64,000 nucleotides of DNA from NCBI RefSeq assembly GCF_963675165.1, contig NC_087377.1, positions 6,279,122-6,343,121 on the forward strand, given 5' to 3'. The translations under genes and the position numbers were made by a program. The notes under the pieces are model-generated. The model was not told the DNA's origin and did not search any database. It saw nothing but the letters and a program-made list of their open reading frames with translations. Positions 30,906-43,190 of this stretch are shown here, piece after piece. This DNA comes from Halichondria panicea (Eukaryota; Porifera; Demospongiae; Suberitida; Halichondriidae). The stretch's first letter is position 1, and each line of letters starts with the position of its first letter.

Positions 30906-31546
30906 GCCTATTATAATAGCGAATGCTAGAAGTTAGCTGAATAAACAGCATCCGCTTTGCCAAAATTTTTTATAGCAGGTCTCAGGGGCGTAGCTAGCCT
31001 CGATTCCAGGCCGCTCTTCCTCGAAGAGAGGGCGGCCTGACGGTATCGACTGTTTGCGCATGCGCTATCTATTACCCAGAAACTGGATAACATCGTATAA
31101 TTATGCTCAGTAAAACAATGACGTCCAAAGAACGGAAGTGGATAGATAAAGTTCGATTGTGAAGGTTTCTAGCCTATCTGATAGCATTTCTAATAGCTAG
31201 CCTTAGCCTGCTATGTTACAAAAGACTCACAGCCTGCAACAGTGTGGATGACAATCGTCTGAACGGAGTGAAGGCTGACAATAGCCTATACGGACAGGCC
31301 ACGCCCATCTGCTACTAACCTTAGTGAAAGTCTACATGTAGAATCTATCAGAAAGAAATAGCTGCTGTAACCAAACGTACAGCTCTGTCTGTAGCTAGCT
31401 AGCTATATGTACGTAGCTCTGTGTATGACTTTTATGAATTTGTATTCTTTGTCTGTATACTTTTCAGGATATTAATTTTTCTGGTAAAATTTATGTTTAA
31501 TGGGAAACTTTACGGGGAAATTGACTAATAATTTTGTGCATGCGCT
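30906..31546. other. Left flank of the 11.6-kb element
   Basis: Contains a solo terminus of the palindromic family in its longer form (TAGCCTCGATTCCAGGCCGC from 30995, then GACGGTATCGACTGTTTGCG), whose counterpart, inverted, is near 62145-62197. No gene recognised. TGCGCT at 31541-31546 is the left target duplication of the adjacent element. Confidence 0.5.
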
Positions 31547-32110
31547 TGTAGGACCAGAAAGCCAGAAATCGGAAAAAGCGGAAGTGAAGGGTAAATGAGT
31601 GGGCGTAGCAGGGCAATGCATTCCAAGGTTAACCCTTGACTTTTCACAGATGTAATGAGATATGCTCTTGCTTGATCACTATACTAGTGTATGTAAGTAA
31701 GTAGAAAGCTGGCCAGCCTAGTTTTAAGTAGACTCTCCATTGTCTGCAGTATAGACTTGATATAATAGCTAGCTACATGCACAATTATGTCTGTACACTG
31801 AGCTAGATTTAGATGAATTTAACATTATCCTTTTTAATTCAGCCAGTCACCGTTACTCCTACTTATACTCCCCAATTTATTGTCTAGAGGTTATTTGGCT
31901 CTATACTGAAACACGCCGAGCCACTTTTCTGACTTTCTGAGAGCCATGATTATAGAACGGGAACTGGAATAATTATGTTCAATCCTGGTCTATATACAAG
32001 CAATTAAGTATATCAGCCAATAAGTTATGTTGATATACTCAATCGACTGGAACTTGCTGAGAAACTTTTCTGACTTTCCGAGAGCAGTGGTTCGTTAACG
32101 GGAACCCAGA
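31547..32110. repeat. Left terminal inverted repeat of the 11.6-kb element
   Basis: Aligns inverted with 42540-43161. The first 100 bp differ at only a few positions; further inward the similarity drops and is interrupted by indels, as expected for an old insertion. Confidence 0.85.
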
Positions 32111-32690
32111 AAAATAATATATTCAGTGCTGGTCTAGACATGCATGCAGATATTAGCCAGTATATGTTGATATATACTCAAGTTTACAATTCTGAGGTTA
32201 CTTTAATCGACTGGAACTTGCTGAGAAACTTTTCTGACTTTCCGAGAGCAGTGGTTCGTTAACGGGAACCCAGAAAAATAATATATTCAGTGCTGGTCTA
32301 GACATGCATGCAGATATCAGCCAGTATGTTGATATATACTCAAGTTTACAATTCTGAGGTTACTTTAATCGACTGGAACTTGCTGAGAAACTTTTCTGAC
32401 TTTCCGAGAGCAGTGGTTCATTAACGGGAACCCAGAAAAATAACATATTCAGTGCTGGTCTAGACATGCATGCAGATATCAGCCAGTATGTTGATATATA
32501 CTCAAGTTTACAATTCTGAGGTTACTTTAATAGACTGGAACTTGCTGAGAAACTTTTCTGACTTTCCGAGAGCAGTGGTTCGTTAACGGGAACCCAGAAA
32601 AATAACATATTCAGTGCTGCTCTATAGACATGCATGCAGATATCAGCTAGTATGTTGATATAATTATACTTAAGTTAAAATTACTCATAC
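32041..32690. repeat. 162-164-bp tandem repeat, four units
   Basis: Units start at 32041, 32205, 32367 and 32529 with AAT(C/A)GACTGGAACTTGCTG and run through CCGAGAGCAGTGGTTC, GGTCTAGACATGCATGCAGA and ATTCTGAGGTTACTTTAAT. A divergent fifth unit precedes them (about 31907-32040). The right TIR has a single unit, so the expansion happened on one side. Confidence 0.9.
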
Positions 32691-34689
32691 AGTCCATGCA
32701 GTCTCCAACTCTATTATTATCTCTTCGATCATGGCATTGTCATTGACCCCCCCTCCCCCTCCTAAAAAGTAGATAATTATAGCTATACAATGCATGTAAT
32801 CAGACTGCATGCACGCAGGAATATATAGTGAAAGAAAACACCATGTTGTAGTACATTGTCAAGTATTTTTCAAAACAAGTTATGTATCCCTGTAGCCATT
32901 TTACTTTAAGTATAGAAGTCCATGGATGCAAGTATAGTTTATTGATCTGAGATTGTTATTGTGGTAGTCGGTGAGCCACGTAATGTCCGACAGCTTGGTT
33001 GTATGTCAACTTGTTGGCTTTACTAAAGAGACTTTTATCATGGCCTGTATACATAATAATTTGCATGTAAATATAGGAGTAGCAAATTGTAATAATAATA
33101 ATTATACTTACTTCAGGGACAAGAGTATACCACATGACATCAAGATGATGAGAGATAGATTTTTGTGGTGTTTCAGATTCGCTGATCAATTGAGTGAAGT
33201 ATAGTACTTCTTTTTCCTGCATGCATGCATGCATGTTTTTAAAGGAAGCATAATTATATTATTTATTAATTTTTAAGCATGTATGTATATATTATAGTAT
33301 GGTTAAGAGTGCAATATAATTATATAGGATTAATAGTACGAGTATATATATACTATTACTGCACGAGTAACCATGCATATTATACTAAATTATTCGAAAC
33401 AATAATTATGCTGCCATTGAGAGCGTGCAATTACTGGACCGGATGTGATAAATTGCTTCATTCAACTATATAACATACTATTTTTACAGCTGTGCATGCA
33501 TGCATGCATGCAGTGTTAAACTCACGAGAGGTGAATTGCCCTGTATATAGGGGAGACGTGCCCCGTAATAAATCTTAATCTTCTCATCGATAAGTTTGTC
33601 TGTAGTAGAGCAACCTTCATCCACCCAGCTGGTGTAGTCTGAGTACTACATTGCTGAGTAGCACATAGCTGCCGCAACTGCATGTGGCTGTTTTATTAAT
33701 AAATCACGTTGTCAAGGTTACAAGGGTGCATGTAGAAATAAAAGTCATGTATAGTCCTTTCCGTGCTATTTTGGTCACGTAGCCTTAATTGGCATTATTT
33801 GGTAAGGAATGAGTATTTTACACAATGACATACATGCATGCATGCAGTACTTGCATGTGTCTGTAATATATAATATTCAAAACACTCAGTCTCACGCTAT
33901 AATTATCTATTACTTGTATATATCATTGTGCATTATTATTTGATAATTATACTGAAATAATTATATGCGTATTTTATGTGCTTACTTCAATTGACTGAAG
34001 GTGATTACGTACAGCTTCCACCGTGAATGGTTGCTTGCTGTATAAGAACATGCACATTCAGTAATTATCATAATTCATGCATGCATATATAATATATATA
34101 TATGACATCATTGCTATAAACGTACTGGTCATCATATGGTGTTGATTTGTACAACAGCACTAATTCTTTCCTCATAGCTAGTGCCTTCTCTCTCAGTGAC
34201 TTGGTGAGGTCCTCTGAGTCCCGGTGTACACGCTGTAGCTGAACCATTTGTTCAGTGATGATTGGCTGAATGATATCGACGTCAAGAGTGTCTGCATGCA
34301 TGCATGCAGAATTTTTATAACAGCATGCATGGTTCATCTATACACGTTATAATTGCATGCATGTATAGTTAAAATCATGCACACTTACTGAAGTATACAG
34401 TGTCTTGTTGTAGAGATAAATCACACGTGCTATGTGATTGCTCTTCATAGAAGGCATCATCTGCATAATAATTACTATAATTTATAATAGCATTATGTAG
34501 ATGATCTGCTTTCATACCTGTCTATAATTATAATTGACAAGGGTTTTATTTGATACACGTTGCTTGGAAATGTCTTAGGACTGAAAATGTTAATTGTACA
34601 TGCATGATGAATATTACATAATTATATAAGTTGTACTAATAAATACAGCATACGATAATTACCGGCACGAAGTAATTATAAGTATGTAT

Positions 34690-35070
34690 AATGAAAGCAC
34701 CACTGCATGGTCTGATAACTCGGTGGGAGGTGTCAAAGCTAAGTGCCAGTAGCAACGTACCACTCCATGGACAAGTATTTCTAAGCACTCTATATTGCAA
34801 AGGCTGCAAAGCATTCCAAGTAAGCAAATTAAACTATAGGAGAACCATGCAAGCATTATTTGCAAATCCACGAATTAAAATCCACTGACTATAATAGAAG
34901 CCTATACATAATTATAATTATTATACTTGCACTTCATTGATCCTTGAGCAGTATAGCAATCTACATACACACACACACCCGAACATGCGCACTACGTATA
35001 CCGTATACTTAGCATGGTCGCGCATGCACACTGAGGCATAATTATATCGCTGCACAATGTGTATCCAGTA
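34690..35070. repeat. Dispersed repeat in the long intron of the element gene
   Basis: The 936-bp intron 34461-35396 contains a block similar to 9470-9700 (CAAGTAAGCAAA, AGAAGCCTATA, CACTTCATTGATC, GAGGCATAATTATAT) preceded by ATAACTCGGTGGGAGG. It is a later insertion, showing that the host element is old. Confidence 0.55.
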
Positions 35071-35192
35071 GAATAAGCATGTTATATACATGTTTATATA
35101 TAGACACTATAGTTAATAAGATCTATAACATATACAGTCATGGAAAAGTGCAAGGAGGTATACTATATGCACATGCACTATAGTAATCTAGA

Positions 35193-35324
35193 CACTGTTT
35201 TGTCGGTGTCCATATGATTTAGAAGCCCTCAGCCAACAGCATACCATGCACCCTTGCTATACACTCGAGATACTAAATCAGTGCCTTTGGTCTTCTAAAT
35301 CCCATGGACACCTCTAAAACAGTG
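35193..35324. mobile_element. MITE-like hairpin with CACTGTTTT termini
   Basis: CACTGTTTT...GGTGTCCAT...ATTTAGAAG and its inverse CTTCTAAAT...ATGGACACC...AAAACAGTG form imperfect 35-bp arms around a 60-nt loop. Nested in the same 936-bp intron. Confidence 0.75.
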
Positions 35325-35511
35325 TTATTATAATTATATCGCACCAGTATATATATATATGCATGCATGTGTGATTGTGTATATTATATGCATTACCTTC
35401 CAAGAATCTCATTTTTACCAACCAAGAACGCATAGTCAACGATGCTGTCTATAATTATATACATGCATGTAGTAAAGTTAATTGCCATTGCATAATCAGT
35501 CAAAAACATAC

Positions 35512-36972
35512 CTCAAAATGAATTGATTTCGAGTGGGCTTTTACTATGTGATCTGCATACTGTAATAAGTAATAAGAGTAAATTGGTGAAAGGGCCGCTT
35601 AAGTGATGTGTGCCTGCATGACACATCTACCATGCGCGCAGTTACACCGACATACATTTATGCATCATGCTAAATGCTTACTTTGCATATGAACACACCA
35701 CAGTCTACTGAATTCGTCTGTTGTGGTATATTCTGCACGGGCATGTAGAAAATAATAATAGAGATGAATGTTACTATTAAATATGTATACCATTGGTGCC
35801 CTATGGTTCCAAGATGAGACATCTGAATGGTGGCCTATATCATCTCGGTAGAGCTGAAGTTCAGCCACAAACTCTCTGCATTATGTATGTATATAATTAT
35901 TGTAATTAGAATATATATATACATACCTCAATTTTTGGTATATTGTCTCGTAGAATATACCACCTTGTGAGTCGAGGAATGTGATAACTTCCTCATCAAA
36001 ATCAATTACCTGCATATATATATAATTATGTTATGACTATTATAATTATGTGCAAATTCTTACGCATAAAATCCAGTGACAATTGGAAACATGCACTGGA
36101 ACCAGCAGTAGTTTCAGTAGTCCTTCACCCTAAGAGATGATTATGATAACAAGATGCTCAGTACATGTAGAGCATTCATCCCGTGCGTTGAGCTTCATCG
36201 CACAGCGGCAAAATGTTTTACTGTATATATAATGACCCCTTGTGGAGAATGATTGTGAATCTATAGATCACAGTCAATTCAATTAGAAACAGTGTTTTTG
36301 TCCCCTTCCTAAGATCTAAAAGTTTCAACTATATTATTTTTCAACAACTGCATGTCTTGTATATGCTAATTATAGTTCACTCAAACAGCTCATTTTGTGT
36401 CCGCACACATGCACGCATGCATATGCACACACACACCAATCACTCTAACCCCTGCTGTGCGCTGCACATGCGGGGTAATAGTATAAAATAATACCTTGAT
36501 GTAGTTAGCTGGACGTCCTTTAGGAGGTTGAGACAATCTCTTTCTCTTGCTGTTGGAAACACCAATGCTATGGTTTTGACTGTACCGTTTCAGACTTGTA
36601 TAGAAGAAAGTCGATACAACGTGATGATTGGTTTTTTCCTTCCCTGCATAAATTAATTCAATGCATATAATTATATACATAATATAGGATTACATGAATG
36701 ATGTACCTCTTCAATAGCTTTTCTGCTCTTCTCCAACAACACTTGAAAGTAGTAATTGATAGTCTGTGCATGTGCACAGTATGAATAAAGGCCCTTCTCA
36801 GAAATACTGTACATGCACCTTATATATAATACAGTAATACGTTATATACTTCGTATATATACCATGTCATCCAGCCATTCTTGATTAAGTATTCTGTCAA
36901 AACTTGATGCAGAGATGGCGGTACCATTGATAGTCATCAAATGATCTTTACCTACGGTACTAGGACCTGGAA
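35512..36972 (-). other. Second Ulp1/C48-type cysteine protease domain
   Basis: Exons 23-30. Begins with ASSFDRILNQEWLDDMTINY (the WLDD entry motif of Ulp1 peptidases), then LLVPVHVSNCHWILCVIDFD (catalytic His), EVITFLDSQGG (Asp) and NIPQQTNSVDCGVFICK (Gln and Cys). All catalytic residues are present and all exon phases agree, so this domain looks intact. A Lys/Arg-rich loop (SNSKRKRLSQPPKGRPANY) inserted between WLDD and HW is unusual. Confidence 0.9.
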
Positions 36973-37498
36973 CTATATAATATGTGGATAAATTTATTAT
37001 TATACCATGCTTGCCTTCACTTATCTTGCATTTTTTATCCTTCTTGATGTTTGACTTCGATGTCGGGAGAAAGTCAAGTATACTTACAGTTTTCTCTGAT
37101 TTTGGGATGTCTGCATATGCAATGCATGCATGGAATCATGTATATATATATAGGGTATATAAATTATAATGCATGCATGCATGTGCACAAAAATAATATA
37201 CCAATAGCAGGAAGTTCAGTAGTGTCATCACTGTCACTGTCTTGCTTTAAAGGTGCAGATGTCCTATACAAAACACAATTTATAGCATTTTAATGCATGC
37301 ATGAAGACCTCTCCGCATGTATAATTATAGGCCCCATGCATGCATTTAGCGATATTTATCCGTCGTATAGTATAATACATCCATGCATATAGCCTAATAA
37401 TAATTATATATAAGCTATTAGCAGAAGTGTATGACCAAGATCTTTGTAATAGTCTGCATGCATGTATATATACATGTACACATTTTAACGTCAATCAC

Positions 37499-37620
37499 CA
37501 CTCAGTGCATCCCTTTCCATTGCAGAGCCTAGAATGTTTTTCTACGACTCGGAGAGGAAATAGTAGCTTGCACTGATTACACCTGACTTCAATGAGTGTT
37601 GATTGATCCATAATATCATC
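37499..37620 (-). other. Cys2HisCys zinc-finger exon between the two proteases
   Basis: VRCNQCKLLFPLRVVEKHSR then LC: C-x2-C...H-x3-C. A single exon in phase with both neighbours. May bind DNA or the substrate; function is inferred only from the pattern. Confidence 0.6.
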
Positions 37621-37694
37621 CTATAAATACACAAATGAATAATCGCATGTTGTCCTATTATTTACTGTGATTCGTACAGTGATTAATCGCGTAT

Positions 37695-37733
37695 CAGTAA
37701 TTGCACGTCGTCATTAACGACGTGCAATTACTG
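37695..37733. repeat. Perfect 17-bp hairpin in an intron of the element gene
   Basis: CAGTAATTGCACGTCGT and its exact inverse with a 5-nt CATTA loop, in the 332-bp intron between exons 18 and 19. Related TTAATAGCACGAGTAAC and TGCACGAG motifs recur nearby (37877-37915) and at 33330-33372. Confidence 0.8.
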
Positions 37734-38384
37734 CCTTGATGACCGCACGTTCGAATAACGGCCGCGGCTAATGTTTTTACTGAAACTGCAGCTAAAAGTG
37801 TCCTTAAAACTGCATCACAAACGATTAACAATCAATAGTATGGCTAAGAGTGCAATATGGGATTAATAGCACGAGTAACAAGCAATAGCAAGGATACTAA
37901 TTGCACGAGGCGCAATTATACTAATTATACAACAAAGCACACATAATTATACCTCTCCTTCTGCCTTTGAATTGATGACATCAGGCATAGTCATTTCCGA
38001 CAGAAGGTTAAACCTGTGCATAATATATAATTATACTGACAATTGAGTACCATGCATATTATAGCCTCGGTTCCAAGCTCATTTTAGAGAACGAATGCAT
38101 GGTGAATAATTAATACCTATAGCACATTTAAATCTGGCCTGCATGGGGAACGAGGCCAGGTATATATATCGTTACTACTTAGTGTCAATGAAGATTCAAG
38201 GTAAACAGTTTTGGTAAATACAAAAACTTTTACATACCCCTGCAAAAGGTCACTGGAAATTTCTGCTCTCAAATGAGTAGTGGTACCCTGCATGTGCATG
38301 TTTAATTCACTATATACGAATCATCATCTTGTCATGCATGCAGGTAATCTTGAACTTACATACTAACTACAACTTTTTACTTAC

Positions 38385-39648
38385 GTGAAAGGTTAGTGAC
38401 TCTTGTTTTAAGATGCACTTCAAATACTGCAGTTTAACATCATCTTAAATTAACGATCGCCAAATTCATACAAATTATACCTTGCACACAAACGGTCCAC
38501 AATCAGACAAATTTTCTTGCCTCGGAATCTCCTGTTTGGAGCGTAAAAGTATATAATATTATAGGCAAAAGACATGCAAATCAAATGAATAATTATGTTT
38601 ACTAGCTATTTAATAACCTCATCAACTGTCACCCACCAGCCAGTCATCTAGACTTGTGTTGTACTGTTCAGCCAACTTGACAATGAAATTCTTGTATTAT
38701 TATGTATATACATTGGTTAATAACATGCACAGTTACACTATAATTATGTAACGTTCTTGGGCCTTTAATAATACAACCTATATTATACATACCAGACAGG
38801 CTTCAATGTGGGGCTGTCAAATGTCGTGTCGTTGAAATCAGAGAAGTCAAGGGAATCGTACACGAACACATTCTTCATTCCAAAGTCGATTACCTATAGT
38901 ATAATTATACACATGCATGATATTGTTATTATGATATTGTTATATAATTATGCCTGTATATACGTAACATAGTAATACATACATATTAAAAACTAAATGC
39001 TAAAAATGCGAGCGGCTATTATCATTGCATCACGCAATAAATTCGAGGCCCGAAACAATTCCCATTGAAATTGCGGGATTTGTAGCATGCAATTAGAGTG
39101 GGCGTAATCTCGATCGAATACGGTAATTATAAGCTCACCAATAGCATGTAATGCCGTTCACATAGTACAGGTAACAGAGCTTTTCCAGTTTGGAAGACTG
39201 TGCCCTGTATAAATAATAATTCATACTAATAATTGTATGTATATATATATAGATGCTTAAAACGTACTGGAATGTTTTTAACTGCTCCCATAACACCTGA
39301 CATATCAGCAGATTGCATCAGGTAGTACAATGAAGAAGACATTATCCAAACTGCATTCTGAATTTACATTACAATTATATTAATTAAAACTATAATTATG
39401 ATTTAAACAAACCTCATCAATGCATAGGACACAGGACAGCATCAATGCGTACAGATCAACCAACTGCATATAATATATATTATAGGGATCAGCACACGCA
39501 TGTATGCATTATAAAATCGACAGTGACATATTAATTACATACACCAAAATAATCAACTGATATTCATACCTCACAGTGAACAGTCCATTGGTTAACTCTA
39601 CAAAGTGCTGGTAGGTAATCGAATAAGGTGGTAGCTTCATCATCACAT
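38385..39648 (-). other. First Ulp1/C48-type cysteine protease domain
   Basis: Spread over exons 9-16. Catalytic signatures in order: His in LPVLCERHYMLLVIDF (HY rather than the usual HW), Asp in VFVYDSLDFSDF, Gln in EIPRQENLSDCGPFVCK and Cys in the same exon (DCG). This spacing and order is that of SUMO/NEDD8-type Ulp1 peptidases. The exon 8/9 phase conflict lies at its N-terminal edge. Confidence 0.8.
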
Positions 39649-40568
39649 CTGAATAAATCAATTGAGTAAATTCATACTTTGCACTTAATATTTACCATCT
39701 GAGTTTGGAGCTTGATGGATGGTCAAATCACTGGAACTGTATAATACGTAACAAATATAATAAGAGCATGATTCCTGCACATTAATATGTACCTCACACC
39801 ATACTTCTTTTTCCAGTCTTTCTTTCGTTCTTGTTTCTTCCTTTTCTTTCCTTTCCTTTTCTCTATAATTATGTTGGTATTTAATGCTAGTACACAGCAG
39901 AATGTGATACTGTACAAAATGCGTACCAATATCAACAGCCTTTGAAATATCATTTCCAACTGCTGTTGATCTGCTTGAAGAAGGAGAAGCACCAGGTCTC
40001 TTGCCTTCACCTATATAATGTACAAGCATTGTGCACATTAATACTTATACATTTATAGCATCAGAAAAATAAAAGTATAGTTACTAACCACCATCATCAT
40101 CTTTTTTCCTCATCTTCTCTTCCAGTCGAGTAACAGAGGACAGCTCGGTTACACTGAACCACTCCACGGTAGACTTTCCCTCAACCTCAAAACTGACCTT
40201 GTATTTCTTGGTCTTCAATTTTCTCTCTACCACTTTCCCATTGTAACAGCGTGGAGCAGAAACACCTTTGCCTTTGATCTTGGTACAATTTTTGTTCTTG
40301 TTAAACTGAACAAGAAGTTCATCACCGACTTGGTACACAGATGGGGGGGTTTTAGAGGCATGTTTTGAAACCATCATCTTTTCAGCTGCACTCGATACCA
40401 ATGCTCCTATCTTTCTGATCTCTTTGGTCAATGTGATATGGGATTCAATGGCATCTTTTGATACTTGGGCCAAGTTCACTCCTTTGAAAGACTCACAATC
40501 CTGTACACAATAAAATTATGGATCAAATAATTGTTGTAGTCCGGTTAACAAATAATTCAGCTGTATAC

Positions 40569-41806
40569 CTCTACTGAAGATTCATCAGACACTGCAGTTT
40601 GAGTATCGTCGTTTTCTCTTTCACTTTGATCCCTTTCATTCATTGGGTGCAAGTTGTAGTTTGAACGACGCCCAAAAAAGAGCTCGAATGGAGACATTCC
40701 TGTACGTAAGTAAATCAATGCAACTCTGATCAGTTATAAAGATGTATAAATATACCTATTGATTTATGATGACCGCTATTATATATCATCTGGTAAACGG
40801 GTAGAGCCAGCACCCAGTTGTTACTGTCAGTACTATCCTTCTCCAATGAGGATATCTCTTCGAGGTTTTTCGTTAAATCGTAACGAATTTTGCTGCGAAT
40901 GGTTCGGTGAGATCTTTCATCCTAAAAGGAATTATTATATCACGCACGCGCATTGCATTATTAAAGCACAAAGCAATTATTCATGCATGCATGCAGTTAC
41001 CTTGCCCTGGGATTGAGGATGCCTATAGCACTGCTTCGAATGATCTTCACTTTCAGCATTGTAGCAACCTTATTGACACACCCACGGAACTCAGAACCTC
41101 TGTTACACTGAAGCCGAACCGGAGTTCCAAAATCAGCAAAAATCTGGAGAAGTTCAGTCGCAACTGCTGATGCTTGCTTTGTGTAGAGAGGCCGCAAAAT
41201 AAGGTACCTCGAAAAGACATCAATGCATGACAGTATCCACTTGTATACCTTGCCTTGTATCTCTACGGGATAGTCCATCATACTCATTAGATCTATCTGA
41301 ACTTGATGCCAAGGATTGCTTGAATGCACTGGACGTAAGCGTGGTTTATTCTCAAATCTCCCCTTGATTTTCTGGTTGAGTTGAGATTTATTGATGTATT
41401 TTTGCACCTCATCTTCACTAATGCCAGTGAACACATCATCGATTCTCTTTTTAATCTTTCTTGCCCCGTCTCCCTTTGATCTATCGTAATAGAAAGCAAT
41501 GCATTTTCCTTTTTCTTCTGTTCGCAACACAATGACCTTCTGAGTCGTCGCATTTTCCTGGAAAAGTATACGCTTTTCATTCTGGTTAGTTAATGGGTTT
41601 TTCATTTCACACACTGACAGACTTTCATGATGTGTGTATCGATAGTAGTAGGCCTTTTTCATTGGGGCACTCCGATCTTTGGTGGGGATATGGTTGCCAT
41701 CTAAGATGTAAGCAAGATGTCTGTGCACTTCATGACTTAAACTTGGAAAGCGTTTTCGTGATGAAATTACTGTGTCAGAAAGTGCTTTGGAGGCATCAGA
41801 ATCACC
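40569..41806 (-). other. Integrase domain (exons 2-4), catalytically impaired
   Basis: FTGISEDEVQKYINKSQLNQ replaces the usual Zn module. The DDE core shows PWHQVQIDLMSMMDYP (first Asp), a YKWILSCIDVFSRYLILRPL strand pair, and RLQCNRGSEFRG where most relatives have Asp at the Asn position. The third region carries HPQSQGK, but in a different frame from the preceding residues because of a one-base loss near 41030, and joins exon 3 beginning DERSHRT with the catalytic Glu. Exon 3 continues NWVLALPVYQMIYNS and exon 4 MSPFELFFGRR, both typical of integrases of this group. Exon 5 (40089-40500) adds a basic SH3-like tail (YQVGDELLVQFNKN, KKYKVSFEVEGKSTVEWFSV). Confidence 0.85.
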
Positions 41807-42110
41807 CTGTATACAGTAATTACAGGGGCGAATATGGATTAAAGAAAGCCTCCCAGGCCAGTTTTCTATTGCCTATATATATGGCCTTGCATTACAGCTA
41901 GGACTGTAGATCTAGAAACAATGGATGCAAGCTTAACAAACGATTATCATCTAATAGTCTACGTTGTAACTATGCCTTTATTATTTATAGTTTTACTTCT
42001 GATTCAGCACAATCTGAGCTTTCCTCACTCTCTCTCATTTCTTCTTCAATCTCTAGTATTGCAGCATCATCACTGCCAACTTCATCGTCACTGCTCATAA
42101 GCTCATCCAT

Positions 42111-42539
42111 GTAGCCAGATCTATTGTATAGCTGTATATATACACTGAGGGGACTTAACTGATGTTGGTGTAGCTGTGTTGGATCTTAATTGGTAGAATT
42201 TACACTCACATACTATCAATTAATGTAAGATCCACTTACCTGCAGACTCATGGATACCCTCAGTCATTGTACTACATCTATAGTAGAATCTATACATGTA
42301 AAACCTAGTATACTTCAATTTTGAAGTTTGTTATGAGCCGCTTGACAATCATTATAGGTCTATATTGGTCATGCAGTGTATATCGACCATCATCGTAGAG
42401 TCTAAGTATAGTTAATTCGATACCTATATAGTCAAAACTGATTGGACCTTCGGTCACGAGCTTACTCAAAAGGCTATCTCTGCACTGAGTTTAGAATAAC
42501 AATATTGGTGAAACATGAACATTTCAGAGTCCTAATAAT
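42111..42539. other. Presumed promoter side of the element gene
   Basis: Lies between the right TIR and the first exon. No TATA box or other element is clear. If the gene is transcribed, its start should be here or in the TIR. Confidence 0.4.
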
Positions 42540-43161
42540 CTATCATTAATTCAATAATTCACTGCTCTCGGAAAATCTAGAAAGTTGCTAAGCAAGTCCC
42601 AGTCAATCAAAATGATGTATAGTAACATATTGGGTGATACCTGCTTGTCTAAGACCAACAATGAACATATTCTTTCAGGGTTCTCGTTTACAAATCTGTT
42701 CACGGGAAAAGTCCGAGAGTGGCTCGACGTGTTTCAGTAGAGCCAGGTATCAATTAACTGGAGTACAAGTAAGAGTTAGGTGACTGGCTGAATGTAATGT
42801 TAAATCTAGCTCAGTGTACAGACATAATTAATTCAGTCATTGTGCATGTAGCTAGCTAGAGTCTATACTGCAGACTATATCCAGTCTATACTGCATGCAG
42901 ACAATGAAGAGTCTACTTACCTGACTCTTAAAAAACTAGGTTGGCTAGCTTTCTACTGACTTACATAGACTAGTAGAGTGATCAGGCAAGAGCATGCACA
43001 TCTCATTACATCTGAGACAGATCTTCTCATTACATCTGCGCAAATCTTCTCTTTACATCTGCGCAAAGTCAAGGGTTAACCTTGGAATGCATTGCCCTGC
43101 TACGCCCACTCATTTACCTTTCACTTCCGCTTTTTCTGATTTCTGGCTTTCTGGTCCTACA
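42540..43161. repeat. Right terminal inverted repeat of the 11.6-kb element
   Basis: Inverse of 31547-32110. Contains a three-fold repeat of CATCTGCGCAAATCTTCTC-like units (43005-43070) absent from the left end. Confidence 0.85.
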
Positions 43162-43190
43162 TGCGCTAGCAGTCAGTAGCTAGGCTGAAG

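Follow-up and report, generated by a model that had tools for sequence, protein, structure and literature searches.

An Integrase-Type DNA Transposon with Two Ulp1 Domains and 6-bp Target-Site Duplications in the Sponge Halichondria panicea

Structure and Gene Content of the Element

The window analysed here is a stretch of 64,000 nucleotides of the Halichondria panicea genome (C1:6279122-6343121), and the genome searched for further copies comprises 131 Mb in 39 contigs. The window contains an element of 11,615 bp (positions 31547-43161), flanked by TGCGCT on both sides, whose gene region combines a retroviral-type integrase with two Ulp1-type peptidase domains and a zinc finger. A preliminary description of the window had placed the boundaries at base level, with TGCGCT outside and TGTAGGACC...GGTCCTACA inside, and these boundaries hold. 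The features are as follows.

31541..31546, no strand: left target-site duplication TGCGCT (flank reading)
31547..32089, plus strand: imperfect terminal inverted repeat at the left end, about 543 bp, starting with TGTAGGACC (end alignment, genome matches)
32041..32662, plus strand: subterminal tandem array, 162-bp unit repeated 3.8 times, motif ACTTTTCTGACTTTCCGAGAGC, four forward matches from 32064
35512..36973, minus strand: Ulp1 domain B, exon pieces, with CHW, FLDSQ and QQTNSVDCG motifs (Peptidase_C48, 3.5e-24)
37498..37620, minus strand: zinc-finger exon, C-x2-C-x11-H-x3-C, between the Ulp1 domains and collinear with relative P0128
38385..39647, minus strand: Ulp1 domain A, exon pieces, with ERHYMLL, YDSLD and RQENLSDCG motifs (Peptidase_C48, 1.7e-9)
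40132..40338, minus strand: integrase C-terminal region (VYQVGDELLV...WFSVTELSS), no Pfam family
40572..40921, minus strand: integrase exons containing GMSPFELFFGR and, in DERSHRT, the catalytic Glu
41001..41806, minus strand: N-terminal domain (HHCC ligands absent) and catalytic core of the integrase; Asn in place of the second catalytic Asp; frame broken before HPQSQGK
41997..42131, minus strand: probable acidic first coding exon (exon model; 80-93% DNA matches in many other copies)
42560..43161, minus strand: imperfect terminal inverted repeat at the right end, about 602 bp, ending with GGTCCTACA (end alignment; 99% in the C11 copy)
43162..43167, no strand: right target-site duplication TGCGCT (flank reading)
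37639..37912, plus strand: member of a high-copy repeat family, about 275 bp, nested in a non-coding part of the gene region

On the minus strand, the acidic first exon is followed by the integrase (41806 to about 40132), Ulp1 A, a C2HC finger and Ulp1 B. Exons were read manually, guided by motifs and without transcripts; a dynamic-programming gene model, which missed several Ulp1 exons, including the two Cys motifs, was dropped in favour of this reading. Both hand-spliced Ulp1 pieces score above the Peptidase_C48 cut-off, and each contains by eye the H, D, Q, C set. The damaged integrase matches Pfam rve at E 2.3e-6, with 28.2 bits for a cut-off of 32.6, while P0001, a protein piece from a separate source that matches 79% of the query at 99% identity, exceeds the cut-off (36.7 bits, 5.5e-9). 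The finger, whose only Pfam match is weak and below cut-off (XAF1_C, 9.6e-4), is distinct from the HHCC domain of the integrase, the ligands of which are missing. No Pfam family was matched by the integrase C-terminal region, where a GPY/F motif would be sought; the region that we judge equivalent in relative P0034 is a beta barrel in the predicted model. A six-frame Pfam scan of the whole element returned Peptidase_C48 above cut-off, rve below it (4.3e-5) and one stray match (E 0.024), with no match in the three plus frames and no Polinton polymerase, ATPase or capsid domain. The gene content first described (an integrase, two Ulp1 domains and a zinc finger, with no polymerase, ATPase or capsid gene) is thus confirmed.

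The window copy is visibly damaged: the second catalytic position is Asn, where all 22 aligned relatives have Asp, and the frame is broken before HPQSQG. P0001 is intact at both positions. As a separate observation, the nested repeat at 37639-37912 has at least 40 matches elsewhere (about 209-298 bases, 87-97%) and resembles a miniature inverted-repeat transposable element.

Ends, Target-Site Duplications and Target Preference

The 0.6-kb terminal inverted repeats (TIRs) claimed at the outset are present, but imperfect in the window copy: positions 1-543 from one end align with 1-602 from the other at 69% identity, rising to 96% in the first 114 bp. In ten other complete copies, for which 1.5-kb arms were compared, the two ends match at 77-86% along 1.4 kb or more, a stretch that includes the tandem arrays. 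A left-end query of 654 bases yields at least 28 genome matches spanning at least 633 bases at 81-100% identity (own copy included), and the ends are of the TGTAGG..CCTACA type in the copies read. Occurrences of motif ACTTTTCTGACTTTCCGAGAGC, with 4 mismatches at most, are spaced mainly 145-170 bp apart, in forward orientation close to the left end and in reverse orientation close to the right one. Of 11 complete copies scanned, 10 have such inverted arrays, with 4-12 matches forward and 3-9 reversed, and a few matches lie elsewhere in copies L011, L014 and L025; the window copy has 4 forward matches and only 1 reversed, and the 51 kb of the window outside the element have none. We regard these arrays as putative integrase-binding sites.

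Target-site duplications (TSDs) were assessed in the 20 copies with both ends read, a count that leaves aside L021, L026, the C8, C3, C6 and C10:5337207 copies, and C11:3041840. A 6-bp TSD is perfect in 16 of them, carries one mismatch in two (L022 and L025) and is unmatched in two (L012, with 2 mismatches, and L020, with 4); the flanks of L011 agree once a 3-bp deletion within its terminus is allowed for. Among the 15 tabulated copies with at most one mismatch at 6 bp, the other lengths from 3 to 9 are never perfect, except 4 bp in L022. Other copies thus share the ends and the 6-bp, not 4-bp, duplication of the window copy, as the preliminary description required. L020 (C5:2343123) is peculiar in that its flanks do not form a direct repeat: TACACA on one side is the reverse complement of TGTGTA on the other. 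It adjoins a piece of the terminus of another copy.

The insertion target is a TGCGCA-like palindrome, a preferred six-letter site: GCGC occupies the centre of 14 of 17 left flanks, versus 56 occurrences of GCGC in 51,000 positions elsewhere in the window. A cluster at C5:3634627-3655194 (L022, L043 and L065) is explained by this preference: an element A, an element B and a terminal fragment C adjoin each other there, separated only by TGCGCG. We also considered that the cluster might be a tandem dimer. However, A and B are apparently in opposite orientation, judging from the positions of their integrase remnants, so that serial insertion into the target is the simpler explanation and the dimer was rejected.

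Polintons have long TIRs, and one may ask whether the element is a reduced Polinton relative, which kept an integrase and a protease pair and lost its polymerase, ATPase and capsid genes. An rve integrase without HHCC, an Ulp1-family protease and a 6-bp TSD are all as in Polintons (PMC10045372, PMC11071308, PMC8097293), and TIRs are likewise common to both (PMC11071308, PMC8097293). However, the six-frame scan contains no PolB, ATPase or capsid domain, and a genome search for PolB gave no match either (nor did its control). Moreover, the ends are TG..CA instead of the AG..CT types of vertebrate Mavericks, the proteases are paired and lie inside the integrase gene region, and scans of viral contigs by patterns found no relative. 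We therefore hold a Polinton origin to be very improbable.

Other Copies in the Genome

The ten other complete copies resemble each other at 83.7-86.4% across 83-100% of their own length, but they match just 13-14% of the window element. Integrase remnants occur in all 20 loci from L009 to L028, often two in opposite sense, and four of these loci (L010, L017, L021 and L023) also contain Ulp1 A remnants. Most of the integrase remnants listed contain stops. Most other copies are thus old non-autonomous relatives with common ends and inverted subterminal arrays.

The copy at C11:3041840 is different: it is 98.7-99.5% identical to the window element where aligned and has TGCGCA on the side read, although it is devoid of most of the integrase and departs from the window element past the Ulp1 A part. 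Such near-identity (about 99%) indicates that the gene-bearing family moved recently, and it is from near-identical copies alone that activity of the family would be deduced.

The integrase search of the genome listed 102 places, the best outside the window being C5:5769117 (L050, L048 and L049). There, an integrase is followed by a Ulp1 Cys motif, a finger and Ulp1 B-like stretches, so that the order integrase, Ulp1, zinc finger, Ulp1 is that of the window. The two integrases are 50-59% identical in the N-terminal part and core, and 38-54% further on; the C5 gene is also interrupted. A genome search with Ulp1 B returned the window only among the matches listed, the diverged C5 stretch having escaped this same search.

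Two further groups of sequences were encountered. L053, L055 and other places contain a multi-copy open frame of up to 188 amino acids, with a CxxC zinc half and a DQGREFVN motif, which is probably a Ginger1-like transposon. In addition, C8:1131869-1133885 and nine other places carry repeated Ulp1 open frames of 188-193 amino acids; at the C8 locus, the Ulp1 frame is followed by a decayed integrase match at a distance of 1.2 kb, and this may be another Ulp1-bearing element.

Relatives in Other Genomes

A profile built from 23 integrases found 295 proteins, the best 120 of which were listed. Four of these 120 are named proteins, from three corals and an oyster: two are labelled SCAN domain-containing protein 3-like, one KRAB-A domain-containing protein 2-like and one Gag-Pro-Pol polyprotein. 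The likeness to KRBA2 and SCAND3, which concerns lineage members in an oyster and two corals, is one of database names only; human KRBA2 and SCAND3 are listed among rve-derived host genes (PMC3257199). In prokaryote contigs, our scan found two weak loci.

A search for full-length proteins gave 19 hits, of which nine (P0122-P0130) belong to the lineage and ten are distant, nine of the latter having reverse-transcriptase domains. According to Pfam, the nine relatives join their integrase to Ulp1 in P0122, P0128 and P0129, to OTU in P0123, P0124, P0125 and P0130, and to both Ulp1 and OTU in one frame in P0126 and P0127. The protease fusion is therefore not peculiar to the window copy, since its relatives carry OTU, Ulp1 or both. 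P0128 has an integrase, a Ulp1 domain and a finger with identical C-x2-C-x11-H-x3-C spacing. Ulp1 A and the finger are collinear with P0128 (25% identity over 163 columns, E 7e-14), whereas Ulp1 B matches the same domain more weakly (2e-9), and Ulp1 A and B resemble each other only around the Cys motif. Thus, Ulp1 A and the finger are probably the part common to the lineage, to which Ulp1 B would have been added.

Relations of the Integrase

In an alignment with five Gypsy rows (IS3 and three further Gypsy rows being left out), the HHCC set is kept in none of 36 lineage rows, each of which retains at most one ligand. Two trees were built. In the second, 32 lineage rows fall on one side of a branch with support 92/93, the 12 closest relatives of the window integrase group at 100/100, and Gypsy groups with the Ginger1-like rows at 100/99; the first tree is consistent with this, giving 95/85 for the group of Gypsy and Ginger1-like rows. 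Among P0001-P0021, 13 were prepared and 12 used in the trees. Neither tree includes P0031, P0072, P0018 or the window piece, and the second also omits three long Gypsy rows. The Ginger1-like rows are L053 and L055, fragments which we take to be Ginger1-like from their motifs, without a database label. Judging from these alignments and trees, the integrase lineage stands apart from both Gypsy and the Ginger1-like elements in the H. panicea genome. As the trees took in no labelled Ginger1, Ginger2, Polinton, IS3EU or GingerRoot sequence, the placement outside described families, put forward at the start, stands for Gypsy and for the Ginger1-like rows of this genome, the named Ginger, Polinton and IS3EU families being compared by description only.

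The element could still be a Ginger1 or Ginger2 member with aberrant features. Ginger1 elements resemble it in their integrase-type transposase, C-terminal Ulp1 or OTU, TGTNR ends and introns; they are described with HHCC, GPY/F and YPYY motifs, a 4-bp CCGG-type TSD, TIRs of 40-270 bp and one kind of protease (PMC2836005). The window element does have two Ulp1 domains downstream of its integrase, presumably in a single gene. However, it has no HHCC domain, its TIRs are longer, and its TSD is of 6 bp and TGCGCA type instead of 4-bp CCGG or CCGT. Neither the H2C2 zinc domain nor the 4 or 5-bp TSD of Ginger2/TDD is found. Because the lineage lies outside Gypsy and the Ginger1-like rows (fragments labelled from their motifs) and lacks HHCC, it belongs to neither Ginger1 nor Ginger2 as PMC2836005 defines them, and we consider such membership highly improbable.

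A second possibility is a eukaryotic IS481-type transposon, the transposase of which would have come from a prokaryotic IS481-like element separately from Gypsy and Ginger, with copy-out transposition as in IS3-like elements. IS481 is the best NCBIfam model for all rows tested, and it scores 94-114 bits in seven of nine lineage rows versus 58-84 in six Gypsy or Ginger1-like controls. The profile match begins at 61-78 in all nine lineage rows versus 88-139 in five of the six controls. The TG..CA ends and 6-bp TSD are those of most prokaryotic IS481 elements, which likewise have no HHCC (PMC10045372). However, IS481 is also the best model of all six controls, one of which (P0132) starts earlier, at 49; the remaining two lineage rows, both fragments, reach only 63 and 66 bits, and none of the rows reaches the family cut-off of 224 bits. 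In the tree, two long-branch IS481 rows fall outside the lineage; constraining them to group with it costs 10.9 log units (p-AU 0.08). Eukaryotic IS481EU elements differ in being parabasalid and in having TSDs of about 4, 15 or 25 bp (PMC10045372). A relation of the lineage to IS481 is thus suggested, while an IS481-type transposon in the strict sense seems unlikely.

GingerRoot is present in corals and fish. It is conceivable, and we take this possibility seriously without favouring it, that the element belongs to the IS3EU/GingerRoot superfamily, as an animal branch which has TG..CA ends and acquired Ulp1 domains. Against this, the Pfam model rva_4, which we suspect covers IS3EU, remains below its cut-off in the relatives tested, whereas rve is above its own. 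By description, GingerRoot and IS3EU have a 6-bp TSD, no HHCC zinc ligands and an integrase-like DDE transposase (PMC10045372, PMC12730594), all of which the lineage has too, and TG..CA ends are occasional in GingerRoot (PMC10045372). However, IS3EU ends are given as always TA..TA (PMC10045372), which those of the element are not, and the excerpts of the two descriptions mention neither Ulp1 nor OTU (PMC10045372, PMC12730594).

The predicted structure of P0034 (mean pLDDT 79.5, pTM 0.61) shows helices at the N terminus, a DDE core and a barrel at the C terminus. Its best matches are the PFV and Ty3 integrases (441 and 461 columns, Foldseek E 5.3e-18 and 5.7e-16), and a profile search of the PDB by sequence likewise listed retroviral integrases and Ty3. 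Superposition on the ten best chains is poor (root-mean-square deviation of 12-14 A, TM 0.31-0.38 by query length), probably because the domains are placed differently; 171 columns fit chain 3l2q_B at 2.6 A.

Discussion

With the ends, TSD length, target preference, subterminal arrays, gene content, absence of HHCC, near-identical second copy and conserved architecture all read directly, we consider it very probable that the window element is a copy of a DNA transposon moving by its own retroviral-type integrase, from a lineage separate from Gypsy and Ginger1-like elements. Several observations weigh against this. The gene is damaged in the window and at the C5 locus alike, no intact copy is among those found in the H. 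panicea genome, the exons were read by hand, and rve is below cut-off in the window copy. The measured copies match the window left end at 81-92%, and the right end mostly at 65-76%, exceeding 95% there only in short terminal stretches; this poorer right-end match means that mobilisation of these copies by the window integrase is not proven. In addition, L012 and L020 have no matching TSD, the ends of relatives are known from the H. panicea genome alone, the tree program issued a long-branch warning, and the lineage branch (92/93) is just below the starred level.

Under the mechanism that we propose, the integrase, with its degenerate zinc-less N-terminal domain, RNase-H-type DDE core and beta-barrel C-terminal domain, would recognise both the TIRs and the inverted arrays next to them as binding sites. 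It would process the TG..CA ends and attach these to target DNA with a 6-bp stagger, preferably at TGCGCA-like palindromes, which would account for duplications of 6 bp. The C2HC finger and the two Ulp1 domains may act in cis or on host factors, and all domains may be on one mRNA. By analogy with what has been proposed for Ginger1, Ulp1 might remove SUMO or ubiquitin-like marks, or process the transposase protein itself.

The preliminary description had seen in the element an undescribed or intermediate lineage. Its 6-bp TSD and its non-Ginger and non-Polinton features are supported, but an intermediate status between Ginger and Polinton is not. The element is an integrase-type DNA transposon and a genuine variant, possibly of an unnamed lineage, and this lineage is widespread in animals and fits none of the transposon classes testable here. 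No description of it was found in a literature search that excluded subscription journals, Repbase and supplements; it may therefore already have a name in Repbase. More tentatively, and with rather low confidence, one could see in the lineage an unnamed superfamily, characterised by zinc-less IS481-like integrases, 6-bp palindromic TSDs and joined OTU/Ulp1, independent of Gypsy and Ginger, and a mobile source of KRBA2/SCAND3-type host genes.

Integrase-type DNA transposons bear on the origin of retroviral integrases and of Polintons. The element described here is well delimited and has Polinton-like insertion features (a 6-bp TSD, a zinc-less integrase and Ulp1) with no Polinton virus genes found, and a defined palindromic target. 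Its lineage joins SUMO/ubiquitin-type cysteine proteases to an integrase in varied combinations, so that the role of these proteases and the origin of KRBA2/SCAND3-like genes become testable.

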